Shown: piece by piece, positions 17,380 to 25,567 of the stretch
Position numbering within the stretch: the first letter of the stretch is position 1
How the letters are laid out: every line of letters begins with the position of its first letter
DNA from: Diphasiastrum complanatum
Taxonomy: Eukaryota; Streptophyta; Lycopodiopsida; Lycopodiales; Lycopodiaceae
NCBI GenBank assembly: GCA_029204225.1
Contig: CM055097.1
Coordinates: 372,001 to 436,000 of the forward strand
Length of the DNA stretch: 64,000 nt
Direction of reading: 5' to 3'
Translations under genes and position numbers: made by a program
The notes under the pieces: generated by a model
Told to the model about the DNA's origin: nothing
The model's input: the letters and a program-made list of their open reading frames with translations, nothing else
Databases searched by the model: none

Positions 17380-17411
17380 GGGCCCTTTTGGACTCAAAAA
17401 GGGCCTCTTCC
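17380..17411 (+). repeat. Left terminal inverted repeat
   Basis: Begins GGGCCCTTTTGGACTC and ends AAAAAGGGCCTCTTC. It is self-complementary: GGCCCTTTT pairs with AAAAGGGCC around a GGACTC centre, so each terminus could fold into its own hairpin. It differs from the right end by one T. Confidence 0.9.
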
Positions 17412-17786
17412 TTGCCTAAACAAATTTTCTAGTCATAATTGATTTAGTGCTAATCAATCCTACGTGGCACCTTTATCTTGGGTTACCATACAAGGTGAGC
17501 AAGAGTTAAGGCCTAAATGTAGGTCTCATTTTCATAGACTATTGTAGGTTATTTGCATAGACTATAATAGGCAACTAATAGGTAAGTTACAAACTACAAC
17601 TAGAGTAGGGTTAATATAGGATGACCTTTCATTATCCTAACTACAATAGGACCCTAGGGATGGAAACTAGTATATGCCTAATAAAGCTTATATCATGGTT
17701 AGTTCACATTGAATTTTGACACCATTTAATTAAGGTATATTGTAACGTTCTACGTAGATTCTTTTGGGAAATTCGACATCTTCAAG

Positions 17787-20453
17787 ATGACAACCAAGTA
17801 TCACTTCATTTGAAGTTAGAGAAGGATTATGCGAACATAAAATCTGCATGGGGTGTTAACTTAAATCCGTATGAGATGCATTGTTGGAGATTAGAAGGCA
17901 AAAAACATATTGACCTACGGGTAAGAGGTGATTTATACCCTCATAATCCACTAGTAGATGCTCCTCCTAAATTTTTTGATGTACATAGTTTGTTAAGGTT
18001 TGTTGAGGACGGTCGGAATGGACTGCTTGGCTATTGTCAAGCAATGGATTCTTGAAGAATCCAAGCTGAGACATTGGCAAATAAGGCAAACATTCATATC
18101 TTGAGTATGAATGACAATTTAGAGTCATTGCATGGAATAAATATGAAATTGGAGCAGGAGATAAATGGTTTTAAAATAGAGCTTGCCAGTTCTGTCGCAA
18201 AAATTAAATAATTGCAATCTTCAATCAGTATATTTCAGAGGACAATATATGGCTTACAACGAAAGCGTAGAGTCTCGATGGATCAACAAGCACAAAATGA
18301 AAACACTAAGAGACACAAACTAGAAGCTTTGGCACCAGGTGGTGGTGCTAGTAAAAGACATATGAGGGACACAAAAGAGTTCTTGCAAAAGACGGTTGGA
18401 AAAGATTTTATTGCCGAAAAATATATGAAACATTTTTTGAAGGGTAAAGATTTGATTAAGATTGTGGAAGATGAAACAAGTGATTCAATTCGCTTGAGAA
18501 TTGCAAAAAAGTTAGTTGACAAGTTCAAGCCAAATCCAAATGTTAAAGAGATGGTGTACGCATGTGATCAAGGAGGTGTGAGTCGCAAGGGGTATAGAGC
18601 TTTGAAGAAATACATGAAATGCTCTGACAGAAATGGGTTAAAATGCCATCAAATAATACCTACTTATAAACTTGTTGAATCCACCAAACGAGAATGCAAT
18701 TTGATTTTGCTTTCTGAATTAGGAGAGTTTCAGCATATTGAGGATTCTTTTATAGTAACCAATAAGAAGAAATGACCTCCGACATGTTTTCATTATCATC
18801 AAGACAACAATATATTCTTAGATCTGAAAAAGGTCCAGCGATGACGATCCGACATTATGAAGTTAAAACAAATGCTAAGAACATTTATTGTGGATTTCGG
18901 TTTTCAATTGTATGCTTTTCTTTAGCTAATATGTTTTCATAATGAAATTTTTGTTTTACAGATTGCGGAGGTAAAGTTATATTTGTTATTAAGTTGGATG
19001 AAGCAGAAATCGTAAAAGGGCGTAAACTTGAATATGTCACAATCACCTTGATGAATCGTGAATTGCAACAGTTTGGCAGAAGTTATTGTAAAGAATTTAG
19101 CGTGCAATCCGAAAATCACATATGGTGGATAGCTGCATTTGAAGTTCATAGGGAGTCTCACGACGTACTGGAGTGGCTGTTTGAAAAATGTAGTATATCT
19201 AAGATAATACATGCACAAAATGAAGGCAAATTGCTCAATGTTGAAGGAGAAAGCTTTGCTGTAGAATGGCACCTAGCTGCTGATTTGAAAGCCTTGAAAT
19301 GCATGTATGGTTGTGGTCTCGGTGCAAATGCAAAGAATTTTTGTATATATTGTATGTTTGAATCTAGGCGGAACAAAAGTATTTTGAATTGCAACCAACG
19401 TCTTGGACCAAATAGGAACAATCTAGACAAAGCTTGGAATCCTGTGTTGAACATTTCTCTCGAAAGAGTCCATATTTGCACAATGCATGGTGAATTATGA
19501 ATACTGGACAAATTATTATTTTTGCATTGTTGTTATGCATGGAACATGTAGCCCAAATCAAGAGCAGATGTTAGCATTAGAAATCTAGAGATAATTTTAT
19601 CCGATATGGGATTGCATGGGGGCCACGTGAGTCTTACCAAAGACGTTGAGATGAGTGGAAAAACGCAAGATGTTCTAGCAAAAATTTCAATGGGTGGTGC
19701 GAAAGCGAGACACTTATTGTCAAATCATACTGCACGTGAAAGCAGTGTTGAATGGGAGTACTGGAAGAAAATATGTCAATGCACAACAAATATTGGCTCG
19801 GATCTTCGCATGGCAAGCATTTGATGCCTTGTCACAAACTATCAACAAAAAGATTGTGAGAGACGAAGATTTGGATAGATACGCAAGAAAAGTCAAAACA
19901 TTTACTGAATTGATGATCGATGCATGGGGAGAAACACACATAACTCACTATATGGTATGTGTGTCTCATATTTTTTACTTTCGTATTTATGTATTTATAA
20001 AGATTTAAACTAATACAAATTTTCTATGAACAACACATCTTCTATGCTCATGGACCTTGGTTTATAAAAACCTACGGATCATTAGCTATCTGGAATACGC
20101 AAGGCATGGAAAAGAGTCATTACAGGGCAAAGGTTGCATATTTAAAAAATTCACGCCATGGAAGAGAAAAGGGTCTTAATAATGCATTGGTTGAGATATT
20201 TCAATGGTTTTACAGAGGAGTTTTGGGTCGAGAACACTTTCAAAACACAAGAACTGAAGAGTTGAGTTCAATGATTTCCAATTCAAATTCAATTAGAAAT
20301 ACGACATGGCAATCCTCTAATGCTAAAACAAGGCATCAAGAATGGAGGATGTCTAGAGTCCGAGTTGGAAAGAGATGGATGTCGAGTACACCAACATCCA
20401 ATGTTTTGGAAAACAATGCTATAGAAGCTACAGAAACTGATGAGATGGAATAG
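17787..20453 (+). pseudogene. DDE transposase-like gene, decayed
   Basis: Starts at ATG 17787 (MTTKYHF). A frameshift follows near 17810, then a heptad-rich segment, a basic segment (KRHKLEALAPGGGASKRH) and the catalytic-like region: Asp at 18997 (VIKLDEAE), Asp at 19282 (HLAADLKAL), CIYC at 19342-19353, HICTMH at 19471-19488, Glu at 20109 (GMEKSH). The D, D, CxxC, HxxxxH, E order is what CMC/Transib-type transposases share; the family call is inference. Stops lie at 18053, 18209, 18773, 18842, 19498 and 19549, and frameshifts near 18900, 19755 and 19960-20010; some of the latter could be introns. It lies between the left terminal repeat and the next gene, as expected for the mobilising enzyme. 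Confidence 0.65.
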
Positions 20454-20586
20454 AAGCAATTTATGTTGGATTGTTATTCGAATATTTCTTTGTCATAAAT
20501 ATTAGTGACGAATTGGATTGTTGTTATAAATAGAAATTGTTTTATTTTGTTTTATAATAATATCTATTTTTGGAAACACGTCCCTC

Positions 20587-20594
20587 TATATAAG
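20587..20594 (+). promoter_or_regulatory. TATA box of the second plus-strand gene
   Basis: TATATAAG within CTCTATATAAGAGTGGG, 125 bp before the ATG at 20719. The minus-strand H3-fold gene has the same octamer at 23954-23961. Confidence 0.6.
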
Positions 20595-20718
20595 AGTGGG
20601 GGTTTTCATTTTGTTGTCACTTCTTGCTTTGTTGAAATTTCTTTCCTCGTAATTTAGCTTGTCTTGTTCAATTAGACTACTAGTTTGCTGGTAAATTAGT
20701 GTTCTTAGTTGCATCACA

Positions 20719-23961: not shown

Positions 23962-24177
23962 GTGAAGGGTTCTATTTTTAGTAAGTGTCCCTATAAAAGT
24001 TTTGGCCTCTTTTTCAAATATAGTATGTTCTTGTTTTGGATCATGAGTAAAAATCCTAATTGTCGGTTAGCGGAGACTTTCAAAGAAAACTAGTAATATC
24101 ATTAAAATGCATATCACTAAACGATTAAAACCCTAACAAGTAGTACACAACCAACTAATTGTGTTTTCTATTTTTCA

Positions 24178-25044
24178 TTAGATAAAATCCTTTATTCCCA
24201 TTGGACTCCTAAGTCTCCGTATCTGCAAAACCAGACACAAAATTAATAATCCTATATGTATTCAACATTACTATTTAAAATTCAGGAATCTGATGGAAAT
24301 TAGGGACTTACATTTTGTCCATTACAAGTGAAGACAAAATCTGCTGGCACATCAGCAAAAGTCAATCCAAACATATGTCGAAGATCTTCTAGGCTGCACT
24401 CCTTATGATATGAATTTCTCGTATTTCATCATGGGGCAAATGTATGGATATCTCCACTTCTTGCTGATTCGTCTCCGCGTCCAGAGGGTCCCATCGGCCA
24501 CGACCAAACTTATATCGCCTATAGATGAAACTTAAGGAGCATGTTTGACGTGAAATATGATACCTTATGGTCATTGTTTCACAAGAGAGCTTACACCTTA
24601 TTAAATCTCCTTTATGCTCCATTTCCTTTGAATCCCATGTGACAAATATGTTATCTAATAGTGATAATTCTGTTGCTTTCCAAGCCCACATCGTGTTTGT
24701 TTTCCTAAAGGGGACCGCCTTAAATATGGCAACAAATACGGTGATCGACACAAAGATGCTATTTCATCCAATAAAATATCTCGATGCATGTATACGTGTT
24801 GCACATTTGCAAGATATTCGCCATTTTGGTCGATATTGAAATCATGGATCCTTCCTTTCCAATGGTAGTCTTGGTTGTTTCGCTTCCTCTTTGCAACCTT
24901 GTGAGTTCCTTTGCCCGATGGTTGCATGTAAACCCAGTCAAAAGTTGAAAATGTATGGGGCACCCAATGCTCATTGGAATCTTTGATGTGTGCAACAATG
25001 GAAGCTAGTTGATTCTTGGACTTCCTTGATTGAGTAGAGGCCAT
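24178..25044 (-). pseudogene. Possible BAH-domain protein of the transposon
   Basis: Starts ATG 25044 (MASTQSRKSKNQ). Segments WKGRIHDFNIDQNGEY, VQHVYMHRD and, after a frameshift near 24770, ELSLLDNIFVTWDSKEM and IRCKLS follow the order of a BAH module (W.G.I....NG....V...Y...D, then EL.L.D......I..KC). A second frameshift near 24390 leads to a segment ending NGQN at a GTAAGT donor (24311), with acceptor TTTGCAG and a short last exon at 24222-24178 ending KDFI. BAH domains bind nucleosomes or modified histone tails, which would suit the H3-fold neighbour, but the match is by eye and weak. It may instead be an unrelated DNA-binding protein. Confidence 0.45.
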
Positions 25045-25150
25045 AATGGATGATGTAATGATAATGTAGGATATGCGAAATAGTATGTGAGATCTTCGGA
25101 TAAGGTGAACCAAAATGAAAAAAATAGAATATTTGTGGAGTATACAAAAT

Positions 25151-25246
25151 GAGAGAGAGAGAGAGAGAGAGAGAGAGAGAGAGAGAGAGAGAGAGAGAGA
25201 GAGAGAGAGAGAGAGAGAGAGAGAGAGAGAGAGAGAGAGAGAGAGA
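25151..25246. repeat. (GA)n microsatellite in the transposon
   Basis: About 96 bp of GA, 107 bp upstream of the minus-strand gene starting at 25044. GAGA-type tracts can act in plant promoters; here this is only positional. Confidence 0.97.
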
Positions 25247-25535
25247 TTACAAAATGAGAGAGAGATAAGAGATACAAGCTTGTGAACATTCAAAATTTGA
25301 AAATAAGGACTAGGCTCACTTAGGATATGGCTGCTAGTAGATAGACAGGCTAGTTGATGTTAACTTGTAGGCATAATTATTGCTTTATCTAGGGTTAATG
25401 TTAGAGGTGTACTTTGTGGGCCCACACTTGACTTAATCTGCACCATTGAATTTGCCATGTCATATGGACCATTCTCTTTCAGTTGTCAATATTTTATTGG
25501 GACACGTGTCGTCACTAACACTAATTATAATTAGT

Positions 25536-25567
25536 GAAGAGGCCCTTTTTGAGTCCAAAAAGGGCCC
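25536..25567 (-). repeat. Right terminal inverted repeat
   Basis: Reverse complement begins GGGCCCTTTTTGGACTC and matches the left end for 31 of 32 positions with one extra T. It can also form its own hairpin (GGCCCTTTTT / AAAAAGGGCC). Followed by TA, the target duplication. Confidence 0.9.

Follow-up and report, generated by a model that had tools for sequence, protein, structure and literature searches.

The window analysed here, 64,000 nucleotides of the lycopod Diphasiastrum complanatum (contig CM055097.1, positions 372,001 to 436,000 of the forward strand), contains at 17375-25572 an insertion of 8,198 bp that is bounded by terminal inverted repeats (TIRs) and carries four genes. Genes 1 (17787..20453) and 2 (20719..22166) lie on the plus strand and face genes 3 (22644..23840) and 4 (24303..25044) on the minus strand, the two convergent pairs that an initial annotation of this DNA had described. 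Gene 1 is a probable transposase, genes 2 and 4 belong to no known family, and gene 3 specifies a histone H3-like protein in which an H3 start is followed by a Q-, S/R- and P-rich region and by an H3 fold at 22647-22973. A point that the initial annotation did not mention is that the copy in the window is broken in all four genes, with stops or frame shifts in genes 1-3 and about 450 bp missing in gene 4, and is a dead relic. The same four genes recur in the same layout in other copies, including a diverged subfamily with about 50-74% identity in the main parts of the genes; this repetition in the genome bears out the earlier description of a TIR DNA transposon that has, besides a gene of transposase type and one with an H3 fold, two further genes.

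A related repeat within the window (58061..59243, junction near 58137) represents the empty site and lacks exactly this stretch. In the self-comparison of the window, the sequences that flank the element on the left (17299-17375) and on the right (25573-26637) adjoin each other there, the empty site reading AAAT/CTTATG and the filled one AAAT/CATTAGGGCCC...GGGCCCTACTG/CTTATG. The left TIR (17375..17410, plus strand), which begins with CATTAGGGCCC, and the right TIR (25536..25572, minus strand) contain arms of 31 nt (17380-17410 and 25536-25566) that are 94% complementary, in keeping with the near-identical inverted ends reported initially. The repeats extend five bases beyond these arms, as CATTA...TACTG in the window and CATTA...TAATG in most copies read, the exceptions being TATTA at the left of copy L046, TGATG at the right of L006 and TACTG at the right of the window copy and its duplicate. 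Because the repeats run these five bases further out, the TA noted initially on both sides is terminal sequence and not a duplicated target.

The same ends occur throughout the genome at levels far above the reversed control. A scan of 1.74 Gb in 5,176 contigs, allowing up to two mismatches, returned 1317+1294 matches to GGGCCCTTTTTGGACTC against 13+18 for the reversed pattern, and 1002+996 (1,998) matches to CATTAGGGCCCTTTTTGGACTC against 0+0. On contig C1, 57 of the 60 exact shorter ends listed are also listed with an exact CATTA when the lists are compared by hand. This contig also bears 15 exact element ends in succession, all on the minus strand and within 2.5 Mb (C1:48608620-51070905), perhaps a large tandem or segmental array containing one end.

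Further empty sites were sought with the joined flanks of six insertions; the best 40 of 7,328 first-look candidates were scored, and these came from two insertions, the other four flank pairs yielding no empty site among them. The net insertion of L048 is CATTA...TAATG plus 0 bases (empty counterparts L077 and L079) and that of L047 is CATTA...TAATG plus 1 base (L076, L078 and L080), a comparison that rests on the five short empty stretches read. With 0, 0 and 1 extra bases at the three informative sites (window, L048 and L047), target-site duplication is absent in 3/3, which shows that these are discrete insertions without target duplication.

Copies, subfamilies and selection

The initial annotation had looked to further full-length copies for support. 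Besides the window copy, L043 and L046 possess both ends and all four genes, whereas in L047, which also has both ends, part of gene 3 is deleted and L070 has lost that gene altogether; L044, with 99.5% identity to the window copy, was counted as its duplicate. Three short derivatives also retain both ends, namely L049 (301-2951), an internal deletion of the main element, and L048 (301-1430) and L006 (1501-2408), which keep little besides the ends. One genome thus contains open, broken and gene-3-deleted copies, a natural comparison.

Copies of individual genes were scored as the best of larger sets of first-look candidates: 150 matches of 5,920 for the H3 domain, 136 of 12,810 for gene 1, and 113 matches from the 101 scored of 11,772 for gene 4. 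At least 56 of the 136 scored gene-1 matches have a listed H3 match on the opposite strand 3,041-3,868 bp away, and at least eight further pairs lie within 8 kb and differ in spacing or orientation; these counts are lower bounds, the H3 list comprising the 150 scored matches and 28 hand-picked from a second H3 search. Copies without the minus-strand genes had been named beforehand as a finding that would speak against the element, and the results on this point are for the most part favourable to it. When loci are selected by their H3 gene (30 best matches, the window copy and its duplicate included), gene 2 is convergent beside it in 30/30 and a gene-4 fragment is reached in 18/30. When gene-1 loci with no listed H3 partner are sampled (19 readable of 20), gene 3 is present within the 2.6 kb read in nine; the other ten are taken up below.

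The diverged subfamily is represented by L050, which has the same gene order and strands as the main family. Its identity to the latter is 74% in the gene 1 exon and 67% in the last exon, 41-60% by piece in gene 2, 53 and 66% in the H3 fold, and 48-67% in pieces of gene 4. The ends of L050 itself were not found in the stretch read, and the right end of L070, a copy of the L050 type, is the same as that of the main family. The layout is common to two diverged subfamilies, and genes 2 and 4 are read as encoding two co-inherited proteins of the family.

Selection was estimated by the Nei-Gojobori method from nonsynonymous (dN) and synonymous (dS) change between L050 and 7-10 main-family loci per gene, among them the window copy and its duplicate. 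The dN/dS ratio is 0.12-0.22 in the gene 1 exons, 0.15-0.22 in gene 2 and 0.14-0.21 in gene 4. In gene 3, dN is 0.18-0.30 for the H3 fold and 0.56-0.69 for the tail, with dS beyond correction. Since broken copies add neutral change, these ratios understate the constraint if anything, and at the level of codon comparison they show that the element genes have been under purifying selection. This selection, together with a layout that recurs in diverged subfamilies, points to gene 3 as a working part of the element. As a separate matter, dS between L050 and the main family climbs from about 0.8 in gene 1 to about 2 where gene 2 ends and to saturation in gene 3, which hints at exchange of element parts between lineages.

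These results bear directly on whether gene 3 was captured passively from the host H3 genes, in the manner of fungal hAT elements. This explanation is already disfavoured and seems to us most improbable: such captures exist (PMC6710886) and the copies here are often broken, but gene 3 is common to two diverged subfamilies in the same layout, its fold shows low amino-acid against saturated synonymous change, and open frames persist. In Pseudocercospora fijiensis and other Dothideomycetes, hAT transposons have captured histone H3; they resemble the present family as TIR DNA transposons of 8-10 kb with H3-like sequence in hundreds of copies (PMC6710886). They have a hAT transposase, 8-bp target duplications and a mostly truncated H3, all but the original being inactivated by repeat-induced point mutation (PMC6710886). 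In contrast, the probable transposase of the element described here belongs to another family and target duplication is absent; its H3 is divergent, has a long new tail and shows purifying selection, and two other genes are conserved beside it. Apart from these fungal captures, a search of the open-access full-text literature, with subscription papers mostly outside its range, returned no transposon in which an H3 gene is conserved.

The H3-like protein of gene 3

The minus-strand frame at 22647-23591 of the window matches the Pfam Histone family over its last 107 residues with E=1.9e-24, passing the curated cut-off, and the H3.1 chains in the PDB with E=1.2e-23. On these matches, the domain is a genuine H3-type histone fold, as the initial annotation had it. 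The window copy of gene 3 has two in-frame TAG codons and a shifted start, and open proteins running from MARTKQTAR to RRERN are found elsewhere, with 412 amino acids at the single place represented by both L029 and L039 and with 394 in L041.

The start of the protein was counted by hand in the 37 readable of 45 matched loci, several of which are the same place read twice. MARTKQTAR occurs in 17/37 and TKQT is kept in 28/37, and position 9 is occupied by D, G or R, never by K, in 37/37. Between L050 and L029, the start differs by four changes, all of them synonymous; identity in the tail beyond it is 31%. The genome has 13 host H3 loci at 97-99% to plant H3. Compared with canonical plant H3 (host loci L071 and L074), gene 3 shares the fold length and the MARTKQTAR start; it differs in a fold that is only 53-56% identical and in a tail that is replaced after R8. 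It retains K4 and lacks the canonical tail, in which K9 and K27 lie: none of the 15 element frames listed (mostly short) contains ARKS, which is present in 2/2 host frames. The H3 domain has three matches in the protein database, none showing the tail of the element.

The fold is closer to host H3 than to a divergent host H3-like frame, L075, to which it is 45-47% identical, and its loop has the length of the host H3 loop, a comparison made with CENH3 in mind in which L075 is presumed to be CENH3-like and CENH3 would be expected to have a longer loop 1. An origin of gene 3 from CENH3 is, by these similarities, not favoured. L075 itself (C8:18046000-18047040) begins MDRKKQTRRD..., is 58% identical to host H3, and is perhaps the centromeric H3; it proved to be a separate H3-like gene and not the gene 3 of the second subfamily.

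In histone H3, the roles of K4, K9 and K27 are familiar, as are the residues that touch DNA, H4 or the other H3. Across up to 41 copies, window and duplicates included, the commonest residue in the gene 3 fold equals that of host H3 in 50/92 columns. The residues kept include R52, Y54, K56, R69, R83, Q93, E94, E105, D106 and T118, together with H113, K115, R116, K122, D123, L126, R128, R129 and R131, each of the latter nine being present in 40/41 copies. R63 (to P), K64 (R), R72 (K), K79 (S) and F84 (V) are changed.

We favour, tentatively and at slightly less than an even chance, the reading that this is a multi-gene TIR DNA transposon family encoding its own H3 variant, gene 3, as an anti-silencing factor, alongside the transposase and genes 2 and 4. 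The gene 3 protein would pair with host H4 and enter nucleosomes on the element or more widely; the resulting chromatin could carry the active K4 mark and not the K9 and K27 silencing marks, and the element might by this means be expressed and remain mobile. The retention of the K4 region with the loss of the K9/K27 context fits such a role, and action on chromatin is made more plausible by the purifying selection and by the MARTKQTAR start without K9. If true, selfish DNA has made its own histone variant, and it would become testable whether a transposon can override H3K9/K27 silencing not by erasing the marks but by exchanging their substrate. A stronger formulation, in which the family would constitute a new plant DNA transposon superfamily that inserts without target duplication and builds silencing-resistant chromatin from its own nucleosomal H3 (K4 present, K9 and K27 absent), is somewhat doubtful.

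Accessory anti-silencing proteins have precedents. VANC of the Arabidopsis VANDAL elements is described as a sequence-specific anti-silencing protein, and these elements are comparable as plant DNA transposons with an accessory gene of this kind; the available parts of its description mention no histone fold (PMC5735166, PMC10398659). Fungal DNA transposons encode a TET/JBP dioxygenase that is proposed to let them escape silencing (PMC12730594). They likewise keep a chromatin-related accessory gene and thus provide a precedent for an anti-silencing factor; their product is an enzyme acting on methylated cytosine and not a histone, and hosts and transposases are different (PMC12730594).

Two other readings start from the same protein. 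A decoy, i.e. a soluble mimic of the H3 tail that occupies the readers or writers of histone marks outside nucleosomes, would suit an H3 start fused to a long low-complexity region, but it would not need the residues near the H3-H3 and H4 contacts (by their roles as generally known) that are kept in 40/41 copies, and we consider it quite improbable. In a second reading, an H3-like protein in the integration complex, or tethering it, steers insertion to one chromatin class through its K4-type tail or through incorporation into nucleosomes. The MARTKQTAR start of H3 is the part recognised by H3K4 readers, and its retention is consistent with this kind of target selection, as is the position of the L047 and L048 insertions in repeats with many related empty copies. 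The insertion sites seen are a biased sample from which no target class emerges, and we judge such target selection unlikely.

Several observations also weigh against an anti-silencing histone. Gene 3 is absent in 10/19 of the sampled gene-1 loci introduced above, seven of these having no element gene at all in the stretch read and three having other element genes, and L070 lacks positions 5113-7072 of L050, which correspond to gene 3, by internal deletion; copies without gene 3 therefore exist, and the gene is not needed in cis. Some presumed contact residues are altered (R63 to P, K79 to S and F84 to V). The anti-silencing role is proposed from sequence comparison, and host silencing through K9 and K27 enters as a premise. 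All between-subfamily comparisons share L050, itself frame-shifted in gene 3, and amount to one contrast. Within the main family, the dN/dS medians are 0.38-0.70, as expected of copies decaying after insertion, those of gene 3 (0.38 and 0.42) being lower than those of the main exons of gene 1 and of gene 2 (0.70 and 0.69). Finally, the element (0.56) is not more depleted in CpG than its flanks (0.48 and 0.50); it is not singled out in this respect, and nothing suggests a special decay through methylation.

The remaining genes and the central palindrome

Gene 1 was delineated from reading frames and from the 41 relatives (E<=1e-3) of its exon at 18961-19821. The window copy has stops at 18053, 18209, 18773, 19498 and 19549 besides frame shifts, and putative introns at about 18900-18960 and 19957-20027; relatives show the intron after THYM as well. 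Common motifs are KLDE, VEWHLxxDxK, CxxC and HxCTLHA, with QGME(K/R)SHY in a later exon. None of 40 members (the window copy and 39 of the 41 relatives) has a Pfam match better than E=0.03, and 15 weakly matching Pfam families are each hit by one member, with no consensus. The gene 1 profile has no match in the PDB, and no relatives were found in viral contigs. Context and motifs make gene 1 a probable transposase; the type considered was an RNase H-fold DDE transposase, which would have D-D-E residues on that fold.

Three superfamilies do not fit the element: hAT, as the 8-bp target-site duplication is absent (0, 0 and 1 extra bases at the three empty-site comparisons); CACTA/EnSpm, given ends of CATTA and no 3-bp target duplication; and the Mutator-like elements, to which the VANDALs belong, as the target duplication of about 9 bp is absent and there is no Pfam match to the transposase of Mutator-like elements (MULEs). 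Spy elements are not known to generate a target duplication. The Spy group of PIF/Harbinger-ISL2EU-Spy (PMC4482050) is comparable with the present TIR element, which lacks the duplication too; it differs in that no PIF/Harbinger-type domain is found in gene 1. Pfam searches with the window pieces and the relatives detected neither such a domain nor a MULE domain, and a remote PIF/Harbinger relation is possible. The gene-1 family, with its insertion without target duplication, may represent a group of transposons that the libraries searched do not contain.

Genes 2 and 4 were likewise traced through reading frames, gene 2 by its presence in other copies and gene 4 by a database relative. In the window, gene 2 has two in-frame TAG codons at 21412-21423 and a putative intron at about 21665-21740, and its pieces match no Pfam family above cut-off. 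Gene 4 lacks about 450 bp at 24762-24764 relative to other copies. Its one database relative, P0045, has 412 amino acids and is 95% identical to L050; no relatives were found in viral contigs. The initial annotation had suggested a BAH protein here. This was rejected, as neither P0045 (up to E=5) nor the window pieces (up to E=1) match a Pfam family.

Between the 3' ends of genes 2 and 3 lies the central hairpin noted initially (22295..22393), with arms of 43 nt (22295-22337 and 22351-22393) that are 95% complementary. Palindromes are found in this interval in 8/8 folded copies, L050 among them, at -143 to -255 kcal/mol with no shuffled control. The hairpin may terminate the two facing genes, or it may give rise to hairpin RNA. 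A palindromic array in mid-element, together with the basic residues retained by the histone fold, would also suit an architectural role, in which the H3-fold protein wraps or bends the DNA of the element, either within the transposition complex or once excised; an H3 start with K4 would be unnecessary for this and nothing points specifically to it, and we assign this role a low probability. In the window and at the corresponding place in other copies, the palindromes are centred on GTTTGACC-GGTCAAAC; this sequence contains TTGACC, which is similar to the plant W-box.

The motif TATATAAG, initially regarded as a shared promoter, stands before gene 2 (20587..20594, plus strand) and gene 3 (23954..23961, minus strand) but is not a common promoter of all four genes. 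It occurs six times in the window against 2.3 expected, a weak excess that 6/100 shuffles reach. Searches of the DNA gave no Rfam match at gathering scores and no tRNA.

Other features of the window

Long GA runs are found at 1944-2157, 8549-8789, 25151-25246, 38012-38139 and 54438-54538, one of them inside the element and upstream of gene 4. Open frames at 50014-50971 on the minus strand resemble a plant tetraspanin gene. Frames at 11547-15549, 27462-30042, 33444-35333 and 39590-41666 resemble, by eye, those of copia- and gypsy-type retroelements.

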